Positions 7,321 to 55,793 of a DNA stretch of 64,000 bases are shown here, one piece after another (position 1 is the first letter of the stretch; every line of letters begins with the position of its first letter). The notes beneath the pieces were generated by a model. The model saw only the letters and a list, made by a program, of their open reading frames with translations. It was not told where the DNA came from and did not search any database. The position numbers and the translations under genes were made by a program. The stretch is taken from contig JAHQIW010005555.1 in NCBI GenBank assembly GCA_019055375.1, positions 62,001 to 126,000 of the forward strand, written 5' to 3'. Source of the stretch: Parelaphostrongylus tenuis (lineage: Eukaryota; Nematoda; Chromadorea; Rhabditida; Metastrongylidae).

Positions 7321-7324
7321 TCCC

Positions 7325-14803: not shown

Positions 14804-15480
14804 AGCTCCTCCACATGCAGTATATAATTTTAATAATCTAATATTTGTATGGGTGGGTCGTGGCCGTAGTGGTTGTGATGCTCGTTGAGGCGTGGGCGCA
14901 AGACTGACTCCTCCCCGCACATTCTTGAGCAGACATCAACGACTCTAAGGCACATCACTGCCATGTATCCTTTAGATTGCAAGTAGACATGCTCCATCAG
15001 TATCTACGACGTAGAAGGAAGCAAATAATAAAAACTGGATGGTACAAGTATTGGGATCCGCACAATGAGAAAACTGTGAGCACGGGTCAAGTAAAGAAAT
15101 TAAAGATATATCTCTATGATGTGTGATTTATCCTGCTCAAAATTTACTCGCCCAGTTGTCTCGATTTCTTCTGCTGTCTAAAATCGTAATACAGAAGCCA
15201 CAATTGCTACATACGCCATTCGTTTCCTCATCATTATGCAGAGCTTGAGCGAATTCATGTTTTTGAATCTACTTTATGATGCATGATTCATACTGCTTAG
15301 TACCTTCCACAAATCTTGCGCTTTCTATGAGCGTGATACAAACCTGTTTTCCATTAACTGGCGCGAATTGCAAAGGAACCTCTTTTGCCAGACAATGACT
15401 TCAGAACTTTCAGTGATAAATTGAAAGCTTAAAATATACTTTCATCATTATTTGAGCCAACATGTTATGTGGTCTGGTAA

Positions 15481-15543
15481 GGGCTCTTGTACAGCGCGAG
15501 ACATGTGTTTCGTCCTTACAGACTCATCAGCCGGGTAGAACCC
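15481..15543 (-). ncRNA. Hammerhead ribozyme motif, family 1 (HHR1)
   Basis: Core CUGAUGA and GAAA are intact, stem II GUC/GAC with loop UGUAAG. Stem III is ACAC/AUGU with the UC cleavage site. Upper stem I (ACCCGG with UCGCGC) has two mismatches, so this copy is probably weak. Lower stem I GGGUUCU/AGAGCCC is complete. Confidence 0.8.
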
Positions 15544-15817
15544 GTCGTCTGTCGATTTTTTTATAGTCAGTTCTCTCGGGAGCGTCACACTCATTATATA
15601 TAGTTATCGACGACGTGCGCTTTACACTCTATGTCAGGTGAAGGTTAAAGGTATAATTATGATAAAAGTACCAGCCATTGAGCAATCAAGTGCACAACAC
15701 TCTGAGTTAGATGAATGTTTCACCTGACATAGAGTGTAAAGCGTACGTCGTCGATAACTATAAATAAGGAGTGTGACGCTCCCGAGAGAACTGACTATGA
15801 AAAGATCGACAGACGAC

Positions 15818-15880
15818 GGGTTCTGCCCGGCTGATGAGTCTGTAAGGACGAAACACGTGTCTCGGGCTGTACAAGAGCCT
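15818..15880 (+). ncRNA. Hammerhead ribozyme motif, family 1 (HHR2)
   Basis: All conserved hammerhead bases are present. Upper stem I GCCCGG/UCGGGC (six pairs, last one G-U), lower stem I GGGUUCU/AGAGCCU, and between them on the 3' side a UGUACA bulge that could contact loop II (UGUAAG), as in natural fast hammerheads. Core CUGAUGA (15831-15837), stem II GUC/GAC, G12-A13-A14 at 15850-15852, A15.1 pairing with U at 15860. The predicted cleavage is after C15861. Stem III is only two or three pairs, the layout known from the Schistosoma satellite ribozyme. Confidence 0.9.
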
Positions 15881-16140
15881 TTACCAGACCACATGACATG
15901 TTGGCTCAAATAATAATGAAAGGATCTATTGAAATTTGAGCGTGGTCTTAATAAAGCACTCGAAGGAAAGGTATAATATGATAAAATACCAGCCAGCTAG
16001 CAATCGAGTGCGAAAACACTCTGTGTTAGGTGAATGACATAGACACCTGGCATAGAGTGTAAAACGTAGGTCGTCGATAACTAGATATGAGGAGTGTGAC
16101 GCTCCCAAGAGAACTGACTATGAAAAGATCGACAGACGAC

Positions 16141-16203
16141 GGGTTCTGCCCGGCTGATGAGTCTGTAAGGACGAAACACGTGTCTCGGGCTGTACAAGAG
16201 CCT
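16141..16203 (+). ncRNA. Hammerhead ribozyme motif, family 1 (HHR3)
   Basis: Same 63-nt motif as HHR2, complete core and stems, predicted cleavage after C16184. It follows HHR2 in direct orientation, so a plus-strand transcript cut at both sites would release the 323-nt fragment 15862-16184. Confidence 0.9.
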
Positions 16204-16616
16204 TTACCAGGCCACATGACATGTTGGCTCAAATAATAATGAAAGGATCAAATCTTAAAATTTTAAAGTGATCCGAATAGAAAACAATATTGTTTGATTA
16301 TTCCCTATAAGCCATGCAGAATTCATCCGATTGAAAGAGGGCAAATGGGATGTCACTATTTGGGTTGATCTGCTTGCTGAAATAAAAAAGGTTCTATGGT
16401 TATGAATTTAGCGCGCGCTGAATCTATGTATTCATGTATTAGACCTTTTCCTAAACGAGGCCTTGAGGGGAGTGCCATTCCTCGTTCGATTGACCTTGAA
16501 CGTCCACTAAACTAAATAACTATAGCTTTATTTTCGAGTGCTTTGTTTAGACCACGCTTAAATTTCAATGGATCCTTTCATTATTATTTGAGCAAACCTG
16601 TCATGTGGTCTGGTAA

Positions 16617-16679
16617 GGGCACTTGTACAGCCCGATACACGTGTTTCGTCCTTACAGACTCGTCAGCTGGGCAGAACCC
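16617..16679 (-). ncRNA. Hammerhead ribozyme motif, family 1 (HHR4)
   Basis: Core CUGACGA and GAAA intact, stem II GUC/GAC, stem III ACAC/GUGU, cleavage triplet GUA (between 16636 and 16635 on minus). Upper stem I GCCCAG/UCGGGC has one A-C mismatch. It represents the subtype with A instead of C at the cleavage position. Confidence 0.8.
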
Positions 16680-16937
16680 GTCGTCTTTCAATCTTTTCAT
16701 AGTCAGTTCTCTCGAGAGCCTTACACTCCTTATAGAGAGTCATCGAAGACGTATGTTTTACACTCTATGTCAAGTGAAATTTTCACCTAGCACAGAGTGT
16801 TGCGCACTTGATTGCTATTTTGGCTGGTACTTTTATCATAAATATACCTTTATTTCGAGTGCTTTGTTTAGACCACGCTCAAATTCTAATAGATCCTTCC
16901 ATTATTATTTAAGCCAACTTGTCATGTGGTCTAGTAA

Positions 16938-17010
16938 GGGCTCATGTACAGCCCGATACACATGTTTCGTCCTTACAGACGTGTATTGGGCTGTACAAGA
17001 GCCCTTACCA
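16938..17010 (-). ncRNA. Truncated hammerhead (HHR5)
   Basis: Stem II, GAAA, stem III and the 3' part of stem I are present on minus. The sequence breaks at 16980, before the CUGANGA segment, and joins directly to the inverted 3' arm. Without the CUGANGA strand it cannot fold as a ribozyme. Confidence 0.7.
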
Positions 17011-17713
17011 GACCACATGACAAGTTGGCTCAAATAATAATGAAAGGATCTATTGAATAACTATACTTTGAGATTAAAGCAATGTCGATTATTGTTGACA
17101 TGAACATTATCGTTGTTTACGCACCAACATGAAGCTATGTCGAAGACGAAGTCAGCGGACTCTATATGGACTTCGATAAGCTCTTTAGAAAAGACCATAG
17201 ATTCTTCAAGGTCATCATTGGAGAACTTAACGTGAAGGCCGAACTTAGAAGAAGGTCTGAAGAAGGAAGAAGGTCTCATAAGGGCGCGCGAACCAGAATT
17301 GAATAAAAAGAATAAAAAGTTATCCGAATTTTTCACAGTGATCAAAGGTGATCTCCGTGCTATCTCACAATTTCAAATACCCTACAATGGACTTAGCAGT
17401 GTTCTAATAAAGAGTACCATAACGTTGCTACTCCAAATTCTGCACAGGTTCAGATCAGCGTACTTTTCACGCATCATCGCATTTTTCACGAACAGAAGAA
17501 AGAGCCTTTGAATTTGGATATCGAAATTCCAGAACTACCATAAATTGGAATATATGCAAATCAATAGTCGTCTTTTAGAGAGATACCGCTATATAATCAT
17601 CGAAGTAATCATCCGTGCCCTCATCTATTAGTCAGAAACATGGTCGCTGCGTAGCAGGATGAAAGCTCATTTGGCATTACTAAGAACATAAATGTTTTGA
17701 GTTGATAGGCCTA

Positions 17714-17761
17714 GTGGTATATGGGCGCCTGTTTCGTCCTATTGGGACCCACCATTACCAC
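17714..17761 (-). ncRNA. Family-3 hammerhead relic, stem I intact
   Basis: Stem I GUGGUA/UACCAC pairs perfectly, stem II GUCC/GGAC with loop CAAUA, GAAA present. The first core strand reads AUGGUGG rather than CUGAUGA, so it is inactive. Compared with 61539-61586 the stem I pair changes from C-G to G-C, a compensatory double change. Confidence 0.65.
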
Positions 17762-18053
17762 CCTACTTCGGTTTAGCCAATACCTTGAAGTCAAATATTC
17801 CTCCAAAGAAAGCGGCACCGAATAAAAATCACCTCAAGTCAGGTGATGTAGTTACGTGACTTTGTGGTGACCGGCAGTCGATAGTCTATGAAAAACGGTT
17901 TATAGAAGAGGTTTAATTCATTACAGCTACGTACTCGACTGCCGGTCACCACAATGCCAGGTAAGTGCATCACCTGACTTGGGGTGATTTTTACCCGGCG
18001 CCGATTCCTTTGGAGGATTATTTAACCTAAGGGATTGGCTGAACCGAGGGAGG

Positions 18054-18099
18054 GTGGTACTGAGTATCAATAGGACAAAACAGGCGACTGTAAACCGTC
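18054..18099 (+). ncRNA. Family-3 hammerhead relic, decayed
   Basis: GUGGUA then CUGAGUA..., with a three-base loss in the first core/stem II region and AAAA in place of GAAA. The stem I 3' strand is changed to AACCGU. Recognised only by its symmetric place in the inverted element. Confidence 0.45.
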
Positions 18100-18865
18100 A
18101 GACCTATCGGCTCAAAACATGCTATATCCTTATGAGAACATACAGTATAGAGGTCGATACAAGAAATGCATAGCATCTCGCTAAGGAGTATTGAAGTTCT
18201 GACTCATGCCAACGATTGGAAATCAAAGATACCGATCTGCATGTCAAGCAATCAAAGAGTGAGCAAGGCACGTAAATGTGCTTCTACAACAATCGATGGG
18301 CGAAAGTCGTCACCGCTGGATTACTCATGATGTCAAACACAGCACAGAAGACGACCCAATGGTCGACGTCTTCACGAGGAGCCTAAAAGAAAGATAAGGT
18401 GCCCAACGAAAATCTAGAGCAAAGACTTACTTACTTCTGCATGCGATAGAAAACAATGGAAGTACTATTGGTGCCTGCTTAAGTCACCCGACGATCAACG
18501 GGCCGACTTGTGGCAGGTGACCGTTGTTTTGTCCATGAGGACAATCCAGTGTAGAACGTTGACTGACCCCACCTTTTGATTCCAGCTCTTTATACCATAC
18601 GGATGGTTTTCATTGATTTCAATGGCCATTCATTTGTGCGCCAATAATTTGGCGACTAGATAGAAAATTTACATACTTGTCAGTTTGCAGAATTTACACA
18701 TAAAACGCAGTTGTAATGGACAAGTTTTACGTCCTTATGTTGGTGATAACACACTTGTAGTCGAGAGAGAAAAGGTTTGAAACCTTTCAATCGACTATTT
18801 TAAGACCTCGTTCAAGAATAGTATAATTTGACAATGTATTTTGAGCCTTTCATAGGTTTGTTATG

Positions 18866-18912
18866 TGCTGACGAAGCTGCAGGGCTGGGACACATGACAC
18901 TGTATAAGTGCC
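18866..18912 (+). ncRNA. Family-2 hammerhead-like motif, truncated
   Basis: CUGACGA, stem II AGC/GCU with loop UGCAGG, then GGGA instead of GAAA, and a 3' GUGCCC. The stem I 5' strand is missing. Relic. Confidence 0.45.
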
Positions 18913-19142
18913 CATAACAGATTTCATAAGAGGCTCAAAATATATTTCAGATTATATTGTTCCTGAGCCAGGTCGCAGAATAGTCGATTGAAAGATTTCT
19001 TAAATATGTCGACAGCTATATCGACAATCAATCACTATGAAAGAACTCCACTGTGATTTTTTCACCGTACGTTGGGTGTAAAAAGTTTGTCGTCGTTTTC
19101 ATTCTACAGAGGTAGAATTCCCGAGGAAATGACTGAATGAAA

Positions 19143-19210
19143 GGGTACCGTGCAACTGAACTGACGAGCCTGGAAGGCCGAAACACATTTCTTGCACTGC
19201 ATGACTGGCC
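19143..19210 (+). ncRNA. Family-2 hammerhead-like motif with intact stem I
   Basis: Upper stem I GUGCAA/UUGCAC pairs perfectly and CUGACGA and GAAA are present. A five-base duplication (ACUGA) separates stem I from the core and stem II is slipped by one base. It is the clearest evidence for the family-2 stem I pairing but probably inactive. Confidence 0.55.
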
Positions 19211-20099
19211 GTAAGAGACCTTATGAGAGGCTTAAAATACATTGTCAGGAAGTGTTCCATCGTAATTTTGTTATTTTAGAAGAAGTTGTCCAGCTCGAAA
19301 CGTGGCACGTTTGCTTGTTGTTTTTAAAGTGGAAAATTGGAACATCGCCAGTGCAGTAGAATCGTTAGCTTCGTTACGACTCTTTATGGGCAGGAAATGG
19401 AGCTGAATATGCATTAACGTGACTAATCACTTCTGTGTTGTTGTAGTTCCTTGTTGTTCTAGCTGAAATGGTAAGCATAAAACACTTTCGCTTAAGTATT
19501 CCTTATGTCCTAAATACAATGTGCTGAGCACAAAGCACTGAGTCGGCAAACTTTCACAAATGAATCTATAAAACTATTACATCAAAGGCTGTGTGGACAA
19601 TATTGTTTCACAGCGTTATTTCATATAAACTGATTGTAGGCGTTAGACTAGTTTAGCGTTGCCGAAATTCGGTATGAAAGGGCAACTCTGGGCACACGTT
19701 TGTTTTTCGCTGTTTTTAACACTCGATTTGTGTCAATGTGACGGCTGTGAAAACCAACATTGCCTAAAGAATAACTGTGGAGACTCGACTTAAATCATCG
19801 TGGCTTTGATTGAAGCAAACTGTCAAAGAACTAGTCAAATAAAGTTGCCTAACAGTCTTGTGAAAGCTCATCATTTGAGCAAAAAATTGTTAGTCAACGG
19901 TGAAATTCAACGAAAATCGAAATTGAGCATTCCTTGCTATTCGGAATAAAACAGCGCAAAATATTGACAAGCCCAATTTTATGATTTCAGTAGTTCAAAC
20001 GCACAGAGAATGTTCGCTCACATGACTGACCGCTCATTGACTTTTCAGCACTTCCGTCATCAGATAGTAAAAGAACTCAACGGTTTTTACATAAAATTG

Positions 20100-20960: not shown

Positions 20961-21152
20961 ACAGATGACATTCAGAAGCCGATGGCGTGGATGTGTTATC
21001 CTAAAAAACTTATCACCCATGAATATACAAGTAGGAATTGAAATTTGTTACAGAAAGCGTTTACGTTTCCATGTGCGTGGTATAACACTGTTAATCGAAG
21101 AGCGTACAACTTTTCATTATTATTTGAGCCAACATGTCATGTGGTCTGGTAA

Positions 21153-21215
21153 GGGCTCTTGCACAGCCCGAGACACGTGTTTCGTCCTTACAGACTCATC
21201 AGCCGGGCAGAACCC
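21153..21215 (-). ncRNA. Hammerhead ribozyme motif, family 1 (HHR6)
   Basis: Full 63-nt motif with intact core, GCCCGG/UCGGGC upper and GGGUUCU/AGAGCCC lower stem I. The bulge reads UGUGCA rather than UGUACA, a change shared with its partner at 21305-21367 and with no other copy. Confidence 0.9.
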
Positions 21216-21304
21216 GTCGTCTGCCGATCTTTTCATAGTCAGTTCTCTCGGGAGCGTCACACTCCTTATATATAGTTATCGACGACCTAAGATCGACAGA
21301 CGAC

Positions 21305-21367
21305 GGGTTCTGCCCGCCTGATGAGTCTGTAAGGACGAAACACGTGTCTCGGGCTGTGCAAGAGCCT
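21305..21367 (+). ncRNA. Hammerhead ribozyme motif, family 1 (HHR7)
   Basis: Intact core. The last base of the stem I 5' strand is C (GCCCGC), giving a C-U mismatch next to the core. It carries the UGUGCA bulge shared with HHR6. Predicted cleavage after C21348. Confidence 0.85.
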
Positions 21368-23309
21368 TTACCAGGCCACATGACATGTTGGCTCAAATAA
21401 TAATGAAAGGATCTATTGAAATTTGAGCGTGGTCTTAATAAAGCACTCGAAGGAAAGGTATAATATGTACAACGTTTTTCGAAGCTTTGCGTAATCGACA
21501 CTTCGTCAGTTTGCATAGTAAAATGCGGTGGTTCTTTTACGCCTGATAGTCATACCGAAAGCACATGCAATACTGCTGAACCACCATTTTTTCTGTGAAA
21601 AGTTTATGAGTGCTAAATATAGCTAAATACTCACTCCATGTCGCTCAAATTGAATTGCTGAGCGAGGAGAAGATCTGCTGTGGGATTCTCTTCGCTTCCA
21701 ACAGGTTGCTTTGATTCAGTCAGTAAATTTGGGCTAGGGATAGACGATAATAACTGCGTTCGTATAAATTGAAGAATTTGATGTTCGTGTTGAATTTTGA
21801 AAAACTTCAATTGAAGCACGCAATGTTATTTTACAGTAGCAGAGGCAAAATGACAAGCACTGCACCATAGCCGGTCCATGCATTGGCTTTCATTTGATGT
21901 GCTCAAAAACATCGACTTTCATTCAATTTTGGCGTGTCTAGCCAATATTTTCCCGGATATCGAAATGAGACGAATTTGGTTTTCAGTAGCGCTTGAGAAT
22001 ATTTGTGGGTGGTGGAATTTCTATGATTTCCTCATTACTCCGCAGGCTTCTAAGTTTTGGGACATCATCTTGATGATAATGCTTGCTTTTATATTGCGTC
22101 ATTTTTCAAGACCTCGCTTAATATTCAGTGCACCCTCAAAGCATATTTAAAGCTTTTATTCAGGTCTGTTTGTGATATTTATTAGGTGCTAGACGTTTCG
22201 GAGTTTTCACTTCAATTACTGCAGTGTTAAGTAATCCTATCACTTGACATGTAGTGATCTGTTGTTCCTGCAGTGTAAAGTGATCTGCGTGAAGAGCAAT
22301 GGAATGGTCGCCATGTATCGAGGCTACTGTATTGATCGTAGACCGGGTTACCTTCCTTCCCTTTGAGAGGTTCTGCGGTTATGTAGGCGGTTTGTCCTCT
22401 AGATCGTTCTCCTCTTCTAGAGGCTACGGTAGTTGCTGTTGCCTACAAGTGGAAGCTTATTTTTCTGTGCTTGCTGTATTTTTTCCGTAGGAATCTGCCA
22501 TGCATTCAAGTAAGCAGTGATATGATGGACCACAATTGAAGCGAAGACTGCGATTTTTACATCTGTACTCTTTTTTGATGAGTTTTTATCGTAATACAGT
22601 TAGTGCATAGGCGTTCTACATTTCTGCAGTGAAATCACGAACGTGGTTTACTTGGGACTGTTTTATGATGGTTTATGTACATCCTCGGTTGGGTGATTAT
22701 GCGATGTGTTGTTGCTTTTAATCGCCGGCGCAACAGATTTGTCTAACTGACCCTGTTTTTTTCAGTTCTTTGGTTATGTATTCTCGGATTGTTTGGAGGA
22801 ACCCACTGTCCTGTGTATCTATCTGACACAACACTGCTTCATTTATGCTGCTGAATTTCTTTAGGTAAACTTTTCTAGAAGTTGCTGTTGCCGATATGTG
22901 TTATCGACCTGTACTCCTTTATGATGTAAATGGATGACCACAGAGTGGAGACTTTCGCACAGGGTTTTTTGATCGTCTAGTCGATTACTGTCCGCTTGTA
23001 CTCTATGTAGTCGCTCCAATAGTATATTTACCAGAGGTTTCCTTCTCATACTCAGCCTTTAAATGGTCGATTATTATTGAATATGGTGCTCGTGATAATT
23101 CCTATTGCTAAACGAACGTTCTAATTTTTCTTTGGAGAGTATTTGATAGATATTTCATTTTGGAGTGATCACCCATCTGCTTGGAATGGACAGAGTGTTC
23201 GAATGTCTCGTCTAATTATTTTCCAATCTCATACATCATCGATAATAGGATAGTGGTAAATTTGTTACTGGTGGGGCAACGCAAGTGTCATCGTTGTTGC
23301 TTTCTGTGC

Positions 23310-25234: not shown

Positions 25235-27414
25235 CGAATGAATCTTTTGTGAAGATTTTTCGGTCCAAAGAGTGACTACTCCTTTTGAAATACTATATTT
25301 TTCAGTGATAATATCAAATCCTAGTACAAAAGTAATTTTTCAACTCCTATTCCGCAGTTGGATAGCCTGTCTTGCGAGAACGTCGCTTGAAAACACATCT
25401 TCTACAACCAGACATCTCTAATCAAGATTTATGTGGAGCTATCTCTGATATATAACTCGATTAAGTGTAGGAAGAGCGCGCGTTCATTATTGCGCATGAT
25501 ACGTTACTTCCCCTGTCAGCACCCATATCGAAAAAAAAAACATTCTTCGTTCTTTGTAGACATTTTAGCAAGTTATTCTACAGCTCAAATCTCGAAAAAT
25601 TAGAAAATGTGTCACTTTTCAAAAGTTCTCTGTATTGCACTGTAACAGAGAAATGAATATGCTATTTGACACCTAAACATCTCTCGATGAGCAACGCTTT
25701 TCCTCAAAAAATTCAGCAGTTTTTCGATAACACAAATCTCGGCAAATTTAACTTAAAATTTTCAGGATATGCTCAGTTTTGAGGAAAACTTTTAAGCTCG
25801 CCGTAACAGCTAAGAGAACATTGAGCTTTACACCAGGCGCGCACCGGACGCCACATGTAAACTGCGCTGCGCAACCGACACGTAGCCCGAGTGCGAAACT
25901 CAATGGTCTTCTAGCTGTAGCAATAATACGTCGTTCTCAAAAAACCAAGCCGATCATTGAGACTGTTGAGATTTGTGCTATCGAATGGTTATTGAAAATC
26001 TAAATGATAACCTCTGTCCAGCGAGAAATGCTTGAGTGTGAAAGAAAAATTGGTACTTGTGTGAAAAACGGTGACAAATTTCTAAGACAATCTCATTCGC
26101 TGAACAGGCAATTTTCATGAGAGTATTTGTACTTATTCGAAAGCTTGAGTCTATGCCTGCAACCGTACGTTGCCGGTTCTTTTGAGCACCCTTTTGTAAA
26201 CCTGTGGCATCCGGGAAAAATTTATTTTTCACTCGCATTCGCCTTCATTTTTACCGCGAGTATAATTGCTAGAAGCACAAAAAGCATGTCAACATGCACA
26301 GAATTTTTCGTTGTGTCAAGATCACGCGCTTTTATTCGATGTGTTTCTGTTCATGCGGTAGAAAATTCCTCAATAAAATAATAACAGTTGCTGCCGTTTT
26401 AACGTGCAATGCGGTAGATCACTGTCGATGTATGCGGTAGAACGGGCGATTATCTTGCTAACAAGTCGTCTCTGTGACTTGCCTTCACATTTTACTCGGC
26501 TGTCAACCTTTTCGGCGGCTTGGATTAATGGCCAACTCACGGAGCTGGGGAACGGGGCCGGGGTGGAGCGACCAATTGCGTTTGAGATATTGTTACTCAG
26601 TCTAGGATTCTCCGCCACATTGACAGTACTTTTGGAAAAAAACGTAGATTCTGATGCTCCAAAAATTATCTACAAGCTGATATGCTTTTCGCGCCTTTAG
26701 CGATTAATGAGTGTGCTAAAAATGAAGGCGAAAGCAAATGAGAAGCGAACTTTTATTCTAGATGCTACAACGCGTTTTTCTCTATGCAAGACGCATCTAT
26801 CTTAACTGAAATCATATAAGCGAAAAGAGAGAAACTTTTCCTATCAAAGCAATACGAGAACTACTAAAACCTTTTGAAAACGACGGAAAAAAACCTTAAG
26901 CAAATGGCGGAAATTGCATATTTAGCGTTTCGCGCATCGATTTCTATAGCCGTCCCATAGGGATTAAGCAAATTTAATTGGGAAAAGACGGATGATCTAT
27001 GATGACCACAATTAAGTAGGCAACTTAGGAAGTTCACAAACAATGCAGAAATATGAACCATTAGTGGAATATTTACCAAGTAAGATTTGAAACGTTTATC
27101 TGGGTACAGTTGATTTGGATGTTATCATATGTAAATAAATATACGCCATACAATGAACGTGTGTATGAATTGTTAACAACAGATGTGACAGCGGCAAAGT
27201 AGATGTGAAACAAAAAGGTAATAACATCTTAAATTTTAAGGCAGAAATGTGCTAGTGCATCTAAAGATGCCCACAATGTAAACACTAAGCCATTTTGAAG
27301 ATTTCTTCTCAATGGTTTTTTATTCAACCACAACGATAAACTCTTGTCGAATTACAGTGTTAAGGTAGAGCCAGTTCTACTTAGTTTCACCTTTTCAGTT
27401 TTACGCACTATCAT
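25235..27414. repeat. Duplicated block C, copy 1
   Basis: Aligns directly with 50840-54440 and, more diverged, with about 40330-42060. Non-coding; contains an internal inverted repeat (around 26040-26110 against about 26700-26860). Position 27096-27108 (TTATCTGGGTACA) is the empty site of the hammerhead element inserted in copy 2. It runs without a break into an RTE shared by both copies. Confidence 0.75.
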
Positions 27415-27644
27415 CTGCATCACCTGTCATCCCGTTGATCGTCGAGTGACTCGAGCAAGCCTTGGCAACTCTTCTATTTTTCCTTATCACGTGCAAGAGC
27501 AAACCAGTAGTTCCCCCTCGCTCTATGGATTCGCTGAAAAACATATCTTTATACCTTCATCTCGAGTGCTTTGTTTAGACCACGGTCAAATTTCAATATA
27601 TCCTTTCATCGTTATTTGAGCCAACATGTCATGTGGTCTGGCAA

Positions 27645-27707
27645 GGGCTCTTGTACAGCCCGAGACACGTGTTTCGTCCTTACAGACTCATCAGCCGGGC
27701 AGAACCC
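27645..27707 (-). ncRNA. Hammerhead ribozyme motif, family 1 (HHR8)
   Basis: Complete 63-nt motif with every core base, both stem I parts, UGUACA bulge and UGUAAG loop II. This is close to the family consensus and a good candidate for testing activity. Confidence 0.92.
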
Positions 27708-27883
27708 GTCGTCTGTCGATCTTTTTATAGTCAGTTGTCTCAGGAGCGTCACACTCCTTATATATAGTTATCGACGACGTACGCTTTACACTCTATGTCA
27801 GGTGAAACATTCACCTAGCACAAAGTGTTGTGCACTCGATTGCTCATTGGCTGGTACTTTTATCATAATTATACCTTTATCTT

Positions 27884-27939
27884 GCCCGGCTGATGAGTCT
27901 GTAAGGACGAAACACGTGTCTTGGGCTGTACAAGAGCCC
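27884..27939 (+). ncRNA. Hammerhead ribozyme motif, lower stem I lost (HHR9)
   Basis: Core and cleavage site intact, upper stem I GCCCGG/UUGGGC (two G-U). The GGGUUCU strand is missing because the inverted copy is truncated there, so the loop-loop contact may be lost. Predicted cleavage after C27920. Confidence 0.85.
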
Positions 27940-28299
27940 TTACCAGACCACATGACATGTTGGCTCAAATAATGATGGAAAACATATCTTTCTTCTATGC
28001 TTTTCGTGAAGAAATTGGCCAATGGGTCGGTGGTCTTCCTGTAGAGCGCTTGGTAACCTGAGGAATCCAGTCGGAAACGGCTCTCATCTATCGGCTGTCG
28101 TTGAAGCGTTGAAGCGCATCACTTGCCCGGCCCACCTAATTTTCGATATTCTGGCGTGTAGAACGACATTTCTGATCTTTGATCTCTGCCATATGTCGGA
28201 ACATCGGATCCCTTCTCTTATTTTCGAAATACGGAAACTTCTAGCATCGATCTTTCAACTGCGCGTTACATAATGTCAAGTGATTTTTCATCCTGCTGA

Positions 28300-38214: not shown

Positions 38215-38222
38215 GTCTTTTA

Positions 38223-39330: not shown

Positions 39331-39349
39331 TAGTGAGTAAGGGTTCTAA

Positions 39350-39935: not shown

Positions 39936-40329
39936 TAAAGATATTTTTCTATGATGCGTGATTTATCCCGCTCAAAAATTGCTCTCCCAATTGTCTCGAT
40001 TTATTGCGTTGTTTAAAATCGTAATACAAAGGTCACAGTTGCTACCACATTCGTTTCCTCATCATTCTGCACCGCTTGAGCGAATTCATAATTTCGTATA
40101 TACTTCATGATGCATGATTCATCCCGCTTAGTACTTGTCACAAATTCCTTGCGCTCCCTATGAGCGTGATACAAAAGCCACTATTCCAGCTTAAGCATTT
40201 CCTGCGTTGTTTCCATTAAGCGGCGAGAATAGCAAAGGAACCTCCTTAGCCAGACAAAGATTCCAGAACATTCAGTGACCAACTGAAAGCTCATATATTA
40301 GAGAACTGCTATATGCACTTTCTTTCCAA

Positions 40330-42500: not shown

Positions 42501-42506
42501 AATGCC

Positions 42507-43445
42507 AAATAATCATTATTTGAACCACGCATGTCAGTGGTCTATCAAAGAGGGCCGACTTATAGAGCCCGATACACGTGTTTCGATCTTACGATCTCGT
42601 CACTCAAGCACTTACTTGTTCTCGTCTTTTGCTAATCTCTGTGGGTGCCCCTTCCCCATGCTAAGAGTTAACGACGCCAAACGTCTTATACTCTATGTCC
42701 AGTGAAATTATCACCGAACACAGAGTGTTGTACATTCGATTGCTCTTGGCTCGTATATTCAATGTACCACATCATACGTTTCGAGTGTTTTCTTAAGACT
42801 ATTCTCAGAAAAAGTTTTCTGTCTGGAAAAGAGGTCCCATTACAAGCCGTGCCGAATAACGGCAAATAACTTTTCTCTTTAATCATTATATGATCCAATA
42901 AGTCATGTGGCTTGTTAATGGGCTCATGTACAGCGCGATACAGGAGTTTCGATGTTACAGTCTTGCCAGTCGGGCAGAACTTGTCGTCATTAGCCAATCC
43001 TCTTGTGGCGCTCACTCCCCTATACTAAGAGTAGGCGATGACGAACGATTTACACTGTAAGTCAAGCGAGATAATCACCGAACATACAGTGCTGTACACT
43101 CGATTGCTCAATAGCTGGTATTTCTGTAATATTATACTTTACCTTTGCTAAAGACTATGGTTCCCCGACTGCCGAGACTACAAGGTGCAAACACGTTTAC
43201 CGGGCTGTACAAGAGCCCATTAACAAACCACATGACTTGTTGGCTAAATAATAATTACGAGATATATTCAAATTTGAGTGTGATCTTGATGAAACACTCA
43301 AAATAAAGGTATAATATTACACAAATACCAGCCAATCGAGTGCATAACACCGCATGTTCGGTGATATTCTCACTCGACTTATACTGAATCGTTCGTCGTT
43401 GCCTACTCTTGGTATAGGACAGTGAGCGCCCCAAATGGATTTCCT
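42507..43445. repeat. Diverged family-1 hammerhead repeat array
   Basis: Two units on minus and one inverted on plus, with recognisable ends (ATTATTTGAACC, GGCTAAATAATAATTA), the inner CACTCTGTGTTCGGTG-type hairpin and three decayed hammerhead motifs (42553-42612 minus, about 42918-42980 minus, about 43150-43215 plus). Spacing between the first two cleavage positions is 366 nt. It is older than the other family-1 copies. Confidence 0.7.
42553..42612 (-). ncRNA. Diverged hammerhead with C3-to-G change
   Basis: Stem I GCUUGA/UCGGGC pairs over six positions with two G-U. Stem II GAUC/GAUC is closed by GUAA, then GAAA, ACACGUGU and A at the cleavage position. The core begins GUGACGA rather than CUGACGA, which should abolish activity. 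Stem II differs from other copies yet still pairs. Confidence 0.6.
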
Positions 43446-44197: not shown

Positions 44198-46253
44198 TCA
44201 GTTTCCGCCGACAGTGGCAAATGCCGAGAAGAAGTGTAATTCAAATGGACCCAATGCCAACATTCGAACCGCTCTATTCACTACATTTTGCCACATCGTT
44301 CTCGACCAATTCGCCATGATGATGTTTGTGGTCTAGACAGAATTTTTGTAAAAGGAGGTTGTGGAAGAAAAGGAAGCAACTCATACCGAGAGAGTTCCTG
44401 ATATTGTCAAGGCAGTGCTAGGAACGTTCTTTATTGTCACTTCACGGACGCCTGCCATGCACATTTTTTTATCTGCACTCTGCATTGCTTCGCAAATTCC
44501 GGTCACTGTGTTGCTGACGACGATGCAGTGTTCTTTCATTTCATGCTCTGCCGCTACTGGAAAGAAATGTGTAGAAGGACTCCTTTTTTCCATTCCTTTA
44601 GACAAACTGAGATGCTAATAGCATTTTCATGCGGTGATATTCTTGTCTTCATCAAAGCTTAAAATCGGTCACTTGCCATTTTGAATACTTTATTCTCATA
44701 ATAAACATAAAAGAAACTTGTTTAGAAAGTTCCATTGATTGAAAGGTTCCAATTTTGGTGCTGTTATGGTAGCCTTCCTCATAATCTAACATATTTTCTG
44801 GTAATTCTCTAGAAATTGTTTGTTTCTTCCAATTAGTGAATAGCAGACGTAGATCTGCTAATTTATTAGTTTCTATACTTCTGGCTACAATATTTCAAGT
44901 AGTTGTTCAATGTTGCGAACCCACATTCTAAATCTGGACTGACAACCCTCTGGCAGTTCATTGGTTCGTAGCTAATCTGAACCCTAAGTTGACCCAAAAT
45001 CATTGAGATCACAGTATCGGATAGGAGTGCGCTATGACCTTGGCCCTCGAGAACATCGAAGATCTTAAGTTCACTCATTGTTAGAATATGTTTGCAAATA
45101 TTTGTATTCAAATTACTTAAAGCTATGCTGAGCATAGAATCACTAGAAATCTAAGACATTAGCAGAAATTACAGCCGTCTCTTACGTGCTCCTAAATTTT
45201 CAAGAGAAAAACTTCAGATTTGAATTTTCAAACATACTGTTTGCATTACAAGACGCTCGACAAATCCCTTGGCTCCCGCCACGCTTGTTGAGATACCAGG
45301 GAAGCGCGCCTGGACATCGGATGCGGTAGAGTAAACCATAGCAACAGGCAATGTGAAGCCGGTGACGTTGAAGGTTCTAGTACTCGCTGCAACGAAAAAT
45401 CTTATTTTCCAATAACTAAACAAAAAATCAAGACAGCAAAGCGAACCCAGGTTTAATAATGTTTTAGAATGATTCTCTTTCTTATTTAGACCAAAAATCG
45501 TTTCAGCGAAGCATTTGGATTATACTGATAAAATATCTTGAGCCTTCATAAGGTCTCTTATGACAATTATACAGTGTATGACGCGAGTTTCAGCACTGCA
45601 ACCTTGTCAGTTACAGGGTGCCTTTCAGTTCAGTCAGTTCCACGGAAAGATTTCCCCTATCTATAGGAACCGACGCCGAAACACTTGTACCTCGACTGCT
45701 CGTGGCTGCTATAAACGTGATGGTCATACCTTCTTATCGAGTGTTTTTGAGACCTCGTACAAAACAATCACGTTTCGCCAGCCATAATCAATCGAGTGTA
45801 CAACATTGCGCATTCGGTTATTTTTTCGTTCTACGCGCCGTGTAACGATTTCGGCGCCGCTTCCTGTAGACAAGAGACATTTTCCGGGGAACTAAATGAA
45901 CCGAAAGACGTTGTGCAACTGACGAAGCTGTCAGGGCCGAAACACGTGCCTTGTCATTGTATAAATGCTCATGAAACGCTCAAACATGTTATCAGATTAT
46001 ATTGTTTTGATATAGGTCTCAAAAACACTCGAAACGGAAGATCTGGGTTATAATCTCCTCTCAGTAGTGATGGAGTGCTAGATACATTTATTCTGATTGA
46101 GATGCATAAACTTGCATTACGATTGAAAACATTTGCAACATTTGAAAATTACCATTCAATACCTTGACCTGCGGGCATCACGCCACATCCCAACGATGTA
46201 GAGATTGTAGTTAGCAAAGAAATCATAAAGGAACAAGTCGGAAACAGCGCCAT
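44198..46253 (-). CDS. Nematode secreted protein, five exons, 222 aa
   Basis: Exons on minus: 46253-46163, 45386-45238, 45063-44940, 44556-44387, 44332-44198. Phases agree at every junction (91, 149, 124, 170 and 135 nt). Introns are 776, 174, 383 and 54 bp. Donors at exons 1, 2 and 4 are GTATT, GTATG and GTATG. The exon 3 donor (GTCCAG) and hence the 3/4 junction is the weakest choice. The start MALFPTCSFMISLLTTISTS is a signal peptide, followed by LGCGVMPAGQ. Later landmarks are TGFTLPVAMVYS, ARFPGI, VMQTIFDVLEGQG, YEPMNC, KNVPSTALTISGTLS and TTNIIMANWSR...RMLALGPF, ending FATVGGN. The pattern fits a family of uncharacterised secreted nematode proteins that I recognise but cannot name; no function is claimed. 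Reading frame is intact. A possible trans-splice acceptor TTTGTCCAG lies upstream near 46293. Confidence 0.85.
45565..45622 (-). ncRNA. Family-2 hammerhead-like motif, sense to the host gene
   Basis: Minus strand: GUAA, CUGACAA (G8 changed to A), stem II GGUUGCAGUGCU, GAAA, CUCGCGUC. The stem II ends can pair but the core base G8 is lost. Likely inactive, so it should not cut the intron. Confidence 0.45.
45907..45970 (+). ncRNA. Family-2 hammerhead-like motif, antisense to the host gene
   Basis: CUGACGA (45919-45925) and GAAA intact; stem II AGC/GCC has one mismatch with loop UGUCAGG. The cleavage triplet is GCC instead of GUC, so U16.1 is lost. Stem I GCAA/UUGU pairs. Confidence 0.5.
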
Positions 46254-47384: not shown

Positions 47385-48282
47385 TTTCAAGCCTTAAAAT
47401 TTCAAGGTGATCCGAATGGGAAGCAAATAATATTCAGTGATTCCCTACTAGTCATGCAGAGTTCATCTAATTGAAAAAGAGGGTTAAAAATGCCATTATT
47501 TCAGTTGATCTGCTTGCAGGAATAAAAAAAGGTTCGATGGTTGAGAATGCTAGCGCGCTCTAGATCTAATTTATGTATCAAAGCATTCTCCTAGACAAGG
47601 CTTAAAGGGGCTACCATTCCTTGTACTATTGGCCTTGAACATCGATCAAACTAAATGACTATAATTTGAAGTCAAAGCAATGTCGATCATCGTCGACTTG
47701 AACATTATCCTTGTTTACGCACCAACATGAAGCTATGCCGGAGACGAAGTCAATGCACTTTTTATGAACTTGGAAAAGCTCTTTAGAGAAGCCCATAGAT
47801 TCTTCAAGGTCATCATTGAGACGTTTAACATGAAGACTGAACCTAGAAGAAGGTGTGAGGAACGTCACATTAGGGCCCGCGCACTAGAACTGAATAAAAA
47901 GGGTGAGAAGTTGACTGAATTTTTCATGGTGACCAGAAGTGATCTCCGCGCTATCCAACATTTCCAAAAACTTTGCGGTTTACATGGCAGCATCCCAATA
48001 AAAAGTATCATAACGTCGCTGCTCTAAATTCTACACAGGATGAGATTAGCGCACTTTTCACGCAATATTTTCTATTTTTTACGAACTGAACAAAAGCCTC
48101 TAAATTTAAATTTCGAAATGCCAGAACTACCATAAATTGGAATATATGCAAATCAATAGCCGGCTCTTGGAAGATACTGCTATATACATCATCATAGTAA
48201 TCATCCGTGCCCTAATCTATTAGTCAGAAACATGGTCGGCACGTAAGCAGGATGAAAGTCATTTGGCATTACTAAGAACATA

Positions 48283-48545
48283 CATGTTTTGAGCTGATGG
48301 GCCTAGTGGTATACAGGCGCCTATTTCGTCCTATTGGGACTCAGCAGTATTACCCTCCCTCGGTCCAGTCAATCCCTGGAGTTAATTAATCCGGCAAAGG
48401 AATCGGTGTGGGATGAAATATTACTCCAAGTCAGTTGATGTACTTACCTAACATTGTGGTGACCGGCACTCGATAGTCTATGAAAAAGCGGTCGATAGAA
48501 GAGGTCTGATTCATTATAACAGCTACGTACTCTACTCGTACATGT
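48283..48545. mobile_element. Family-3 element, right arm lost
   Basis: The left arm and centre match 17692-17945. The right arm, from the GCCGGTCACCAC half on, is missing and the sequence passes to flanking DNA near 48545. Confidence 0.7.
48306..48353 (-). ncRNA. Family-3 hammerhead, one core change
   Basis: Core CUGCUGA (A6 changed to C), stem II GUCC/GGAC with CAAUA, GAAA, stem III and cleavage GUA kept. The stem I 5' strand GUAAUA no longer fully pairs with UACCAC. Confidence 0.6.
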
Positions 48546-49089: not shown

Positions 49090-49590
49090 TTTTCAGTCGA
49101 CTATTTTAAGACCTCGTTTATGAATAGTATAATCTGACAATGTATTTTGAGCCTCTCATAGGTTTGATATGGGTGACGAAGCTGTAGGGCTGTAACACAT
49201 GTTTTGCATTGCATAAGTGCCCATAACAGATTTCATGAAAGGCTCAAAATATTTTTCAGATTATATTGTTCCTGAGCCATGTCGCAAAATAGTTGACTGA
49301 AAGGTTTCTTGCATATGTCGAGGACGCCTTATCGACAATCATTCACTATGAATGAACGCCACGGTGATTTTTTTCACCTTACATTGAGTGTAAAAAGTTT
49401 GTCGTCGTTTCCTTTCTACAGAGGTAAAGTTCCCAAGGAAATGACTTAACGAAAAGGCACAGTGCAACTAAACTGACGAGCCCGGAAAGCAGAAACACGT
49501 GTCTTATACTTCATGAGTGGCCGTAAGAGACCTTATGAGAGGCTCAAAATACATTGTCAGAAAGTGTTCCATCGTAATTTTGTTATGTTA
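49090..49590. repeat. Family-2 hammerhead repeat, block B copy 2
   Basis: Paralogue of 18780-19260. Motifs at 49170-49222 (plus; GUGACGA, stem II AGC/GCU, GUAA for GAAA) and 49456-49520 (plus). Confidence 0.6.
49456..49520 (+). ncRNA. Family-2 hammerhead-like motif
   Basis: CUGACGA (49473-49479), GAAA, ACACGUGUC cleavage site all present. Lower stem I GGCAC/GUGGCC pairs. Five extra bases separate stem I from the core as in the paralogue at 19143, and stem II GC/GC is short. The UUAUAC strand no longer pairs with GUGCAA. Confidence 0.5.
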
Positions 49591-50830: not shown

Positions 50831-53462
50831 TGGAATATCATGATGAACCTTCCATGAAGACTTTTTTGATCCAAAGAGTGGCTACTCCTCTTAAAATCCT
50901 TAATTTTCCAGTTGTAATACCGCATCCTTGTACAAAAATAAATTTTCAACCCCTATTCCGCATTTTAATCGCCTGTCTTGCGAGAACGCAGCTTGAAAAC
51001 ACATTTTCTACAACTAAACATCTTCAATAGAGGTTTATGTAGAGGTATTCCTAATATGTAACTCGAGTAAGTGAAGGAAAAGCGCGCGTTTATCATTGCC
51101 CATGATGCGCTACTTCCCCTATCAGCATACATATTCGAAAAAGAGCTACTTTCTCTCCTTGTAGACATAGCAGTTATTCGATAGCATAGATCTCGAAAAA
51201 TTAAAAGATATACTATGTATTTTTAAAGGTTTCTGTATTACACTGTAACAGGGTAAACCATATGTTATTTAACACTTGGGCATCTTTCGATGAGCAACGC
51301 TTTTCCTCAAGAAATTCAGCAATTCTTCGACAACGCAAACATCGGCAAAGTTAACTTGAGATTTTAAGGACATGCTCAGTTTTTGAGGAACACTTCTTAG
51401 CTCGTCATTACAACTAAAAGAACATTGAACTTTGCACTAAGCTCGCACCGGGCGCCACGGGTAAATTGCGCTGCGCGACCGACACAGCACCGAGTGCGAA
51501 GCTCAATGATCTTTCAGCTGTAACAACACACTAGAACGTCCTTCTCAAAACCGAGCCTATAATCGAGATTTTTGAGAATTATCCTATCGAATAGTTATTG
51601 AAAATCTGAATAAAAACATCTGTTCAGCGAAAGCTTGAGTGTGGAAGAAAAATTAGTACTTGGATGTTAAGCGGTCACAAATATTTAAACTGCTCTCATT
51701 CGCTGATCAAGCAGTTTTCATAAGAACATTTGTACCTATTGGAAAGCTTAAATCTCTGCCTACAACTGTACGTCGCCGGTTTCATAGAACAGCCTTTTAT
51801 AATTCTGTAGCATCCAGAAAAACAAATTTTACTTCTCACTCGCTGTCGCGTTCATTGAACCACGAGTATAAATCGCTAGAAGCACGAGAAGCATGTCCGT
51901 GTACAAATTTTCCGTCTTGGCAAAATCACGCATTTCTATTCGAAGTTTCTGTCGATGCGGTAAAAAAACACCTCAATAAAATAACAATAGTTGTCGCCGG
52001 TCTAACGTACAATGCGATAGATCACTGTCGACCTACCCGGTAGATCAGGCAATTATCTTGCTAACAAGTCACTGCTGTGACTTGCCTTCACATTTCATTC
52101 AGCTATGAACCAATTCGGCGACTATGCTTAACGGCCAACTTACGGAGCTGCGGAAGGGGGCCGGAGTGGAGCCACCGATCGCGTTTGAAATATTGTTTTT
52201 CAATTTGGAATTTTCCACAACATCGATAGCACCTTAAGAGAACAACGTAGATTTTGGTGTTCCTAAAATTGTCTACACGCTAATATGCTTTTAGTGCTTC
52301 CAGCGATTCATAAGCGTGATAAAAATGAAGGCGAAAGCGAATGAGAAACGAACTTTTATTCTAGGTGCTACAGCGACAAAATGGTTGGTTTAAGAAATCG
52401 GCAACGCATAGTTAACCAGAGATTTGAGCTTAGTAATGATTACTAACGCTTTCAAGAAATGTTATTGACCAGCGAATGAGATCGACTTAAAAATTTGTCT
52501 CCGTCCAACACATAAGTACCGAAAATTTTACTTCACCTTTACAGCATAATTTAGAAACCACTTGAAAAATAAAACATACCCTTTTCACCCGATATTCAAG
52601 CTGTCGAAAAATTATTGAAGCCACGGAAATGAGTAAAAACTACTTTGTTTGGATATGGGTGCGGATAGGGGAAAGGTACCGAGAATACTTTTCCGGAGAC
52701 ATATTTCTGACCAATAATTTGCGTAGTGCCGATGTTCTAAGCCTTTTATTCATACACGACTTCCCTTACAGCGCAGAGCTCTTCCACTATTCATAAGTAT
52801 TCAACCTTTTTTCGCTTATCTCAACTCTGAATAATTGGAAATAAACGAATGATTGATATAAACTTTATTATAACGAGAGGTATCGATGAACTAGTATCGA
52901 ATACAGCATGGCATGATCATTTTTGTTGTAAATTACTCATTGTTTTCGATTTTTATTCACTGTGTTTGTTCTTGGGCTTTGAAAAATACTATGGTAGATC
53001 AAAATTCAAGTTTTTTTTATTGTGATATTCTCCATGCAATTTACTACAGTTGACTAATTGTCAAATTTAGCATAGTTCCGCAATAAACCAGCGTTTTTCT
53101 CTACGCAAGACGCACGTGTCTAGACCAAAATCATATGAACGAATAGAGAAAATCTTTTTCTATAAAAGTAACACAAAAGTTGCAAAAAGTTTTCCAAAAC
53201 GGCGAATATACCTTAATCAAATAGCAAAAATTGCGTATTTTGCTCTGCGCGCATCGATTTCAATAGCAGTCCCATAGCGATTAAGTGAATTTATTCAAAA
53301 AAATCAATCTTTGATGGCCACAAATAACTAGGCAACTTAGGAAGCTCACAATAACACAAAACGTAAACCATTAGTTTAATATTTACCACGGAAGATTTGA
53401 AAGGTTTATCTGAGTACATCCTTTCATCATTATTTGAGCCAACATGTCATAAGGCCTCGTAA

Positions 53463-53525
53463 GGGCTCTTGTACAGCCCGAGACACGTGTTTTGTCCTTA
53501 CGGACTCATCAGCCGAGCAGAACCC
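53463..53525 (-). ncRNA. Hammerhead motif, family 1, G12-to-A
   Basis: CUGAUGA intact; stem II extends to GUCC/GGAC with a GUAA loop; but the sequence after stem II is AAAA not GAAA. The missing G12 (general base) predicts loss of activity. Upper stem I GCUCGG/UCGGGC still pairs using U-G. Confidence 0.8.
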
Positions 53526-53974
53526 GTCGTATGTCGATCTTTTTATGGTCAGTTCTCTCGGGAGCGTTACACTCCTTATAGAGAGTTATCGACGACGTAC
53601 GCTTTACTCTCTATGTCAAGTGAAACATTCACCTAACACAGAGTGTTGTGCACTCGATTGCTCATTGCCTAGTACTTTTATCATAATTATATCTTTATCT
53701 CAGGTGCTTTGTTTATACCACGCTCAAACTTCAATACATCCTTTCATCATTATTTAAGCCAACATGTCATGTGGTCTGGTAAGGACTATTGTACAGTCCG
53801 AGACGCGGTATAATTATGATAAAAGTACCAGCCAATGAGCAATCGAGTGCGCAACACTTTGTGTTAGGTGAATGTTTCATTTGACATAGAGTGTAAAGCG
53901 TACGTCGTCGATGACTCTTTTTAAGGAGTGTGACGCTCCCGAGAGAACTGACTATAAAAAGATCGACATACGAC

Positions 53975-54037
53975 GGGTTCTGCTCGGCTGATGAGTCTGT
54001 AAGGACAAAACACGTGTCTCGGGCTGTACAAGAGCCC
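53975..54037 (+). ncRNA. Hammerhead motif, family 1, G12-to-A (partner)
   Basis: Inverted partner of 53463-53525. It shares that copy's G12-to-A change, its GCUCGG stem strand and its CATACGACG flank. Predicted inactive. Confidence 0.8.
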
Positions 54038-55433
54038 TTACGAGGCCACATGACATGTTGGCTCAAATTATGATGAAAGGATATAATGAAATTTAAGCGT
54101 GGTCTAAACAAAGCACTCGAGACAAAGGTATAATTATCTGAGTACAGTTGATTTGGAAGTTATCATATGTAATTAAATATACGGCATACAATGAATGTGT
54201 GTTTAAATTGCTAACAACAGATGTGAAAACGGCAATGTAGATGTGGAATAAAAAGATGATAACATCTGTTAAATTTTAAGGGAAAATTTGATAGTGCATC
54301 TAAAGATGTGCACGATGTAAACACCAAGCCACTTTGAAGATGTCTTCTCAATGGTTTATTGTTCAACTACAGCGAGAAGCTCTTGTCGAATTACAGTGTT
54401 AAGACAGTGCCAGTTCTGCTTCGTCTCACCTTTTCAATTTTGCACACTATCATCTGTATCACTTGTCGTCTCGCTGATCGTTGAGTGACTCAAGCGGGCA
54501 CCAGCAAGGGGGGGAGTTCGCATCACGTGTCCGGCTCAAATTATTTTCGATATTCTAGAGTGTAGTGCGTTGTCTTTGATCTACGATCTTCGCCATAGGT
54601 AGATACATCGGATCCCTTCTCTCTTTTACGAGATACGGGATACTCTTAGCATCGATCTTTCGACTGCTCGTCCAATAACGTCAAGTGATTATTCGTCCTG
54701 CTCACATATCAACCAGGTTTCTGATGCATACGTTAGGGCAGGGATAATCGTCGAGTGGAAGAGGTGGGCAAGGAGTCGGATGTCCATGGTCTTCTTCACT
54801 ACAGCCTCGATGCTCTTAGAACATTTCCCACGCCGCTGGTTTCCACCTGCTCAACTCTGGAGCTAGGTAGTTCATCATGTTGCTCTCACAACCTAGGTAG
54901 ACGTGATTGGAGCATTCGAAAATGTTAGTTTCGTTAAGGGTAAATGAGGCATTCAAAAACCATCCGTTCATCATGAACATCGCTTTTGTCAGATTAAATT
55001 GAAAGCTAATCTCTCCACACGCGTTGTCGAAATCGGTCAACATTCGTTCCGCTTGCCTGATGTTTGATGTTATGAGGACGATATCATCAGCAAAGCTAAC
55101 ATGGTTTGATTGTCGACCGTCAATTTTCACTCCCATCTCGTCCCATTCTAATGTTCGCATCACGTTTTGGAGGGTGGCAGCGATCAGTTCTGGCGAAATT
55201 GTATCGCCTTGTCGAACCACTCTTCTTACGTTGATGGTTATATTCTTGTAGAATGGAGATTTGCTTGTGAAATCTTTGTACACCTCACGAAGGATCGATA
55301 TGTACCGAATGAAGACGCCCTGGTCATCCAGAGTCTTTATAATCGCATCTGTTTCCACTGTATCAAAGGCATTCTTGAATTTCAATGGATCCTTCCATTA
55401 TTATTTGAGCCAACTTGTCATGTGGTCTGGTAA

Positions 55434-55496
55434 GGGCTCTTGTACAGCCCGATACACGTGTTTCGTCCTTACAGACTCGTCAGTCAGGCAGAACCC
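55434..55496 (-). ncRNA. Hammerhead ribozyme motif, family 1 subtype GUA
   Basis: Core CUGACGA/GAAA intact, cleavage triplet GUA. Upper stem I GCCUGA/UCGGGC pairs at all six positions (one U-G, and A-U next to the core where others have G-U). Lower stem I and UGUACA bulge intact. Confidence 0.9.
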
Positions 55497-55727
55497 GTCG
55501 TCTTTCGATATTTTTACAGTCAGTTCTCTCGGGAGCTCTACTCATTTACAGAGAGTCATCAAAGACGAACGTTTTACATTCTATGTCAAGCTCAATCGAG
55601 TGCGCAAACACTCTGTGTTAAGTGAAATTTTCGCTTGACATAGAGGGTAAAACGTTTGTCTTTGATGACTCCCTGTAATCGAGTAGAGCTCCCGAATAAA
55701 CTGACTATATAAATATCGAAAGACGAC

Positions 55728-55793
55728 GGGTTTGCCCGACTGACGAGTCTGTAAGGACGAAACACGTGTATCGGGCCGCACCCGCACAAGAGC
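55728..55793 (+). ncRNA. Hammerhead ribozyme motif, family 1 subtype GUA (partner)
   Basis: Core intact, upper stem I GCCCGA/UCGGGC six Watson-Crick pairs. The 3' bulge is enlarged (CGCACCCGCACA) and lower stem I is weaker. Predicted cleavage after A55770. Confidence 0.85.

Follow-up and report, generated by a model that had tools for sequence, protein, structure and literature searches.

The DNA analysed here is a 64-kb window of the nematode Parelaphostrongylus tenuis (contig JAHQIW010005555.1, positions 62,001-126,000), whose own numbering is used below and from which all counts for the repeat family under discussion, family 1, are drawn. This family is built on a 323-nt unit carrying a hammerhead ribozyme (HHR), and it occurs as six insertions in which copies of the unit lie head-to-head. 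A first-pass annotation, made from the letters alone, had placed twelve type I hammerheads of this family in the window, and the Infernal search against Rfam that it proposed as a check detects all twelve (cmscan), with 5/12 passing the gathering score of Hammerhead_1 (RF00163; GA 34) at 34.1-34.9 bits and E-values of 5.5e-5 to 9.7e-5. Four of these five, all with intact cores, score 34.9 bits (15825-15867, plus strand; 16148-16190, plus; 21166-21208, minus; 27658-27700, minus), and the fifth, likewise intact in its core but with the outer part of stem I lost at an insertion junction, scores 34.1 bits (27884-27926, plus). The remaining seven regions are detected at E<=5. Six of them match RF00163, namely 55734-55776 (plus, 31.6 bits), 21312-21354 (plus, 30.6 bits, one mismatch in stem I), 55447-55489 (minus, 29.8 bits), 16630-16672 (minus, 28.4 bits), 53476-53518 (minus, 27.8 bits) and 15494-15536 (minus, 24.0 bits, weak stem I), and the seventh, 53982-54024 (plus), is matched by RF00008 at 53972-54016 with 23.7 bits against a gathering score of 48.5. 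The covariance-model matches to RF00163 thus support the identity of these motifs as type I hammerheads, for which self-cleavage is predicted.

The core letters, read by eye, also agree with the first-pass description. CUGAUGA or CUGACGA is present in 12/12 copies and GAAA in 10/12, which gives ten intact cores, while the copies at 53476-53518 and 53982-54024 have AAAA (G12A) and are expected to be inactive. Stem II is GUC/GAC, and the short stem III can be read either as 2 bp closed by an ACGU loop or as a loopless helix of 4 bp. The cleavage site reads GUC except in the copies at 16630, 55447 and 55734, which have GUA. Stem I is in two parts in most copies, with an outer helix GGGUUCU/AGAGCCC and a 6-nt UGUACA bulge on the 3' side; the outer helix is missing at 27884, broken at 55734 and mismatched at 16630. 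A custom structural descriptor recovers nine family-1 copies and one copy of a second HHR family described below, against one match in 60 first-order Markov sequences of 64 kb, and misses the copy at 15494, which has too few stem I pairs, and both G12A copies. The exact HHR pattern had no match in the viral contigs and none in the genome contigs searched, both collections being viral or prokaryotic.

The unit coordinates used here refer to one natural copy at 15868-16190 (plus strand), in which the HHR occupies unit positions 281-323 and cleavage is predicted between positions 317 and 318. The unit has 44% G+C, and its longest sense stop-free stretch, read in the repeated unit, is 51 amino acids; it holds only small open reading frames (ORFs) and is too short to contain the reverse transcriptase (RT) plus GIY-YIG ORF of a Penelope-like element (PLE). 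As a circle, the unit has a predicted folding energy of -94.3 kcal/mol, compared with -70.4 +/- 5.2 for 100 dinucleotide-shuffled sequences (z -4.6). Only once, in the right half of one of the six insertions, does the unit occur as a tandem dimer, its two HHRs 323 nt apart, and five halves span more than one unit (E1R, E2L, E4L, E5L and E5R, where E1 to E6 are the insertions and L and R their halves). The term retrozyme-like used in the first-pass annotation is apt because the unit is ORF-less, predicted to be strongly self-paired and once a tandem dimer, and the family shows what defines such elements, an ORF-less monomer of about 170-400 nt with a type I HHR that occurs in tandem. Family 1 is thus a genuine family, for which nematode retrozyme is the most fitting name. 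The annotation was also right to see a mobile element here, although the entity that moved is the 323-nt unit in inverted head-to-head pairs and not the 56-66-nt copy that it had listed.

Mapping the window onto the unit gave 18 rows, of which 12 make up the insertions E1-E6 and hold all twelve HHRs; the six divergent rows were excluded from the insertion counts. In 6/6 insertions the left half is on the minus strand and the right half on the plus strand, and therefore both outer edges correspond to the 3' side of the RNA and the HHRs face outward. E1 (15439-16249) runs from unit 177 to 55 in its left half and from 95 through 323, 1 and 323 to 59 in its right half, the tandem dimer. In E2 (16525-17055) the left half covers unit 294 to about 106 (span 450) and the right half 311 to 64, so that only the last HHR bases are retained on the right. 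E3 (21111-21466) has unit 200 to 54 on the left and 258 to 112 on the right, and E4 (27551-27978) has 100 to 109 on the left (span 333, slightly over one unit) and 280 to 52 on the right. E5 (53419-54133), with G12A in both halves, has unit 312 to 59 (span 396) and 103 to 110 (span 331), and E6 (55377-55793) has 181 to 67 and, on the right, 134 through 323 to about 11. Where the halves meet, their inner ends are 82, 17, 58, 180, 209 and 47 unit positions apart in E1 to E6, respectively.

Short target duplications flank these insertions, and the longest exact word shared by their flanks was compared with that shared by each of 5000 random pairs of window stretches. The duplications are clear in E2 (10 bp, AATAACTATA, 16515-16524 and 17056-17065; 5/5000 random pairs share such a word), E4 (13 bp, AAAACATATCTTT, 27538-27550 and 27979-27991; 2/5000) and E5 (13 bp, TTATCTGAGTACA, 53406-53418 and 54134-54146; 2/5000). 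They are weaker in E1, where an imperfect duplication surrounds CTTAAAAT with 8 bp exact (36/5000 pairs match as long), in E3 (7 bp, GTACAAC, 21104-21110 and 21467-21473) and in E6 (8 bp, GC[A/T]TTCTT with one mismatch, 55369-55376 and 55794-55801). All are thus longer than 4 bp, as is expected of retrozyme duplications where these are present, being exact over 7-13 bp in E2-E5 and imperfect in E1 and E6. Homologous empty sites lie elsewhere in the window for E2 (47654-47663), E4 (within 12485-12501), E5 (27096-27108) and E6 (13461-13468 and 28964-28967); none was found for E3 and no complete one for E1. Outward-facing inverted copies between short duplications of variable length are marks of PLE-type integration, and it is this insertion anatomy, together with the PLE-like ends described next, that the first-pass annotation missed and that leaves its account incomplete.

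The outer edges, read by eye with an error of a few bases, fall at two places in the unit. Seven short edges lie at unit 52, 54, 55, 59, 59, 64 and 67, that is 58-73 nt beyond the predicted cleavage site, and four long edges at 106, 109, 110 and 112, that is 112-118 nt beyond it. A short edge is paired with a long one in E2, E3, E4 and E5, and both edges of E1 are short; two 3' edge positions with a tail on one copy, a further PLE-type mark, are thus found in 4/6 insertions. Eleven of the 12 edges lie within a 60-nt arc of the 323-nt unit, which none of 20000 uniform draws reproduced, and two arcs with a summed span of 21 contain the same number (0/4000 draws); with edges defined by BLAST, one of which over-runs, the arc is 59 nt (0/100000 draws). 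The apical loops of the predicted fold, at unit 52-59 and 108-118, contain 8/12 edges (6/12 with the BLAST edges), and the hairpin base pairs are kept in 92% of cells, above slid versions, although one of the rows had itself supplied the structure. From the gapped alignment, RNAalifold recovered stem I's outer helix alone. The modelled fold suggests two start sites at or near hairpin loops.

The cleavage site is traversed in each of the 12 halves (by just 7 nt in E2R), and therefore the usual template would not have been a cut linear monomer; a circular RNA or an uncut multimer is indicated instead. E5 bears on the need for cleavage. Between its halves, both G12A, 4/105 positions differ, whereas against any other copy each half shows at least 6 differences over the 57-105 positions compared, and therefore the dead ribozyme most likely predates the insertion, for which cleavage would then have been unneeded. 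Gene conversion between the halves could also have produced the shared G12A. Inner 5' ends at unit 95-103 are found in 3/12 halves (E1R at 15640, E4L at 27878 and E5R at 53807), the other nine being scattered, and two of these three halves exceed one unit in length by about 8-10 nt; such ends could reflect the start of a transcript or one complete circuit of a circle. A match to the microRNA family MIR821 (53612-53888) also spans the palindromic junction of E5; it occurs on both strands, scores 83.8-86.9 bits where the gathering score is 249, and was rejected as a microRNA.

The window also holds an element at 37307-39931 (minus strand) that we call a decayed PLE because it has a GIY-YIG piece above the cut-off (PF01541, within 37647-38000; 28.5 bits, cut-off 22.6), an RVT_1 piece, and RT relatives in strongylids. 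The RT pieces lie at 38226-38654 and 38507-39079 (RVT_1 24.9 bits, below the cut-off of 29.6), and BLAST aligns outward inverted terminal copies at 37343-37723 (minus) and 39514-39940 (plus). The RT ORF (171 amino acids) is matched by 89/101 candidate proteins, with named relatives from Angiostrongylus, Necator, Nippostrongylus, Haemonchus, Heligmosomoides, Parelaphostrongylus and Ancylostoma; the best is from Angiostrongylus costaricensis (68% identity over 98% of the query), and pieces from P. tenuis itself match at 51-91% identity over short parts. These strongylid relatives bear out the nematode host proposed from the letters. Near each end of the PLE is an HHR-like motif, AAACGTC / AAAATGTC, named by its position and by partial agreement with what we take to be the letters of PLE hammerheads, its cleavage-like site being placed by analogy. 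Beyond this motif the PLE extends 61 nt on the right and 107 nt on the left, the left edge thus being 46 nt longer, to be compared with 58-73 and 112-118 nt in the retrozyme. The PLE is a candidate, and no more, for the partner of the retrozyme. Its RT piece gave five pattern matches in viral contigs, none of them confirmed, and a sequence search of the GIY-YIG piece against the PDB gave no match.

Two further repeat families of the window carry HHRs or HHR-like stretches. The second HHR family (17692-18133, 48282-48392 and 61506-61810) has a palindromic stem III, AUAGGC/GCCUAU, and an intact core at 61545-61580; its copy at 17692-18133 is outward-paired, with both cores broken, and is flanked by a common AGAACATA. 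The third, older family is HHR-like (18779-18999, 19089-19258, 49091-49302, 49401-49570, 45525-45690, 56484-56854 and 62039-62123), with 18779-18999 and 49091-49302 inverted and an HHR-like stretch near 19160-19215. A GGCTCAAA box is common to the third family and family 1, and in the latter it directly precedes the short edge. Elsewhere, positions 1-8161 form a very large palindrome, either natural or an assembly artefact: the stretch 1599-5871 matches its own reverse complement at 96.9% over 4296 bp, and 1-1599 reappears in inverted orientation at 6562-8161 (97.8%). A tRNA is found at 60075-60149 (tRNA-Pro(CGG) by ARAGORN, tRNA by Rfam), and the repeat around it, which recurs at 63362-63755 and inverted at 60328-60428, is perhaps a tRNA-derived short interspersed element (SINE).

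The likeness of the family-1 insertions to those of PLEs can be followed in the published accounts. For the anole PLE (PAc), Frangieh et al. (2024) found that the purified protein cleaves and extends both DNA strands and uses two adjacent internal start sites, matching an optional tail of 30-40 bp; within the ORF, the HHR cut is at 26 bp and the most frequent start at 111-118 bp, and HHR mutants remain able to insert in vitro (PMC11167929). The insertion of E5 with G12A in both halves is in line with those mutants (PMC11167929). In Penelope of Adineta vaga, described in 2013, inverted pseudo-long terminal repeats (pLTRs), duplications of 8-10 bp and a tail on one inverted copy were reported, with head-to-head as the most frequent arrangement (PMC3846280). 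Family 1 shares with these HHR-bearing, pLTR-flanked PLEs the outward inverted copies, short variable duplications, asymmetric edges and starts about 60-120 nt past the HHR; unlike PAc and the A. vaga elements, it has no ORF, a 323-nt unit and a canonical HHR, and its start sites are not at the distances known from PAc.

The unit itself resembles known retrozymes. Cervera and de la Pena (2020) described animal retrozymes as tandem repeats giving RNAs of about 170-400 nt, and regarded PLEs as a strong candidate for moving them on the grounds of shared HHRs, tandem copies and co-occurrence (PMC7229834); the suggestion is repeated in two reviews (PMC7761336 and PMC11722881) and mentioned in a curation guide (PMC8969392). 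Family 1 is like the metazoan non-LTR retrozymes in its type I HHR, monomer size, lack of a protein-sized ORF, tandem dimer and predicted strong self-pairing, and also in its G+C (44%, against <45-50%), duplications of more than 4 bp and a PLE nearby (PMC7229834). It departs from their description as tandem repeats in forming six head-to-head inverted pairs with two edge positions. It recalls the newt and axolotl satellite HHR in its unit of about 330 nt and weak helix III with a palindromic tetraloop, and differs from it in being dispersed as inverted insertions and in its 2-bp helix III, as stated for invertebrates (PMC7229834). With the Schistosoma satellite and W-elements it shares a worm genome and a type I HHR in short mobile repeats, though the phylum is different and the likeness is drawn from the descriptions (PMC8490949). 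The word nematode does not occur in the main text of PMC7229834, and the literature searched, in which older nematode reports are incompletely covered, yielded no account of retrozymes in nematodes and none of retrozymes inserted in this manner. What is new is that the insertion scar works like PLE integration, which supports the long-suspected movement of retrozymes by PLEs.

We therefore propose, with a probability of about 0.72, that family 1 is a non-autonomous retrozyme of a strongylid nematode inserted by Penelope-type machinery. A tandem copy would be transcribed, and the HHR could cut the RNA into 323-nt monomers that are perhaps circularised, as published retrozymes lead one to expect. 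A PLE protein would then recognise the HHR and the module downstream of it and make a staggered cut of about 7-13 bp in the target; that the cut was staggered is shown by the duplications, and a PLE enzyme is the probable agent. Reverse transcription would start inside the RNA at one of two places, lying about 58-73 and 112-118 nt downstream of the HHR cleavage site, with priming from both cut DNA ends, which we infer because both outer edges are the 3' side in 6/6 insertions. Copying of an uncut or circular RNA would carry both cDNAs beyond the cleavage site, and the two would be joined head-to-head at variable points; variable head-to-head junctions are seen directly in the insertions.

Several observations weigh against this proposal. 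It is built on six insertions from one 64-kb window, and the duplications of E3 and E6 are weak taken alone, as 148/5000 and 2042/5000 random pairs share an equal exact word; both insertions therefore rest on their other evidence. The right edge of E6 (unit 11, 17 nt beyond the cleavage site) fits neither cluster. Among the family-1 relatives at 42512-43441, which are 68-76% identical and have broken ribozymes, the pair at 42877-43364 has the left-minus, right-plus arrangement with its right edge at neither site, and 42512-42807 is a single minus stretch; for the plus stretches at 56770, 58599 and 62041 no inverted family-1 partner was mapped in the window. Covariation in the start-site hairpins was not above that of shuffles, and these hairpins therefore derive from single-sequence folding only. 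The PLE of the window has no BLAST similarity to the retrozyme unit, its HHR-like motif does not keep the C3 and G12 letters, and the repeat that it splits is unbroken at 15097-15099, where the overlap amounts to 3 bp and falls short of the retrozyme duplications. In the published comparison, the main start of the anole PLE lies 85-92 nt past the HHR cut, between both retrozyme sites, and the retrozyme tail is about 40-60 nt against 30-40 in PLEs (PMC11167929). Finally, the head-to-head copies of A. vaga were attributed to self-priming on an antisense template and not to two-ended priming (PMC3846280).

That last attribution offers another route to the mirror halves, namely that the insertion is of PLE type but a single strand was copied by self-priming or snap-back, an explanation put forward for Penelope copies that are head-to-head and have palindromes at the junction (PMC3846280). 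In family 1, however, the inner ends differ by 17-209 unit positions in 6/6 insertions and therefore do not reflect simple snap-back, and the outer edges are often short on one side and long on the other, which makes this route quite improbable. A somewhat less improbable alternative, though still an unlikely one, is that family 1 is no independent retrozyme and that its units are solo pseudo-LTRs, devoid of an ORF, of an autonomous PLE that bears an HHR. The anatomy is indeed PLE-like, and PLE insertions often have inverted pLTRs and truncated copies (PMC3846280). Yet after the start sites the unit returns directly to the next HHR (in the E1 dimer, E2L, E4L, E5L and E5R), leaving no room for an ORF, whereas the start sites of the anole PLE lie within the 5' part of its ORF (PMC11167929). 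The family-1 HHR is moreover canonical, while PLE HHRs are described as minimal (PMC7229834, PMC7761336).

Machinery of other kinds fits the insertions less well. The window does contain RT ORFs of the long interspersed element (LINE) type, from copies that we take to be RTE, with RVT_1 in 2/5 ORFs scanned, and a SINE-like element moved by a LINE could have acquired its inversions through twin priming, which is known to produce them. Twin priming on one RNA, though, yields two non-overlapping parts, whereas both halves here contain the same stretch up to the edge, both edges lie at the same two sites, and no poly(A) or simple-repeat tail was seen at the family-1 edges; we regard this origin as very doubtful. 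Inverted terminal copies and target duplications would also be expected of a DNA transposon of the Foldback or miniature inverted-repeat transposable element (MITE) type with incidental ribozymes. Such an origin is scarcely credible for a family in which the duplications vary between 7 and 13 bp, the terminal base is not fixed, one insertion holds a tandem dimer and every inner junction is different.

Scars of the PLE pattern make the identity of the enzyme that moves animal retrozymes directly testable in any genome that contains them. As far as the literature searched shows, the present family extends retrozymes to nematodes. Insertion by Penelope-type machinery would also bear on the role of hammerheads in PLEs. 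Animal retrozymes may stand to PLEs as SINEs stand to LINEs, having copied the PLE recognition module (the HHR and start hairpins at about 60 and 110 nt) and being integrated by two-ended PLE priming, at a staggered cut, on circular or uncut multimeric RNA, with head-to-head twin insertions as the outcome, a generalisation to which we would give even odds. If it is true, the conserved genomic job of the HHR would include marking RNA for the PLE protein, and such a mark would explain how the cleavage-dead E5 could move.

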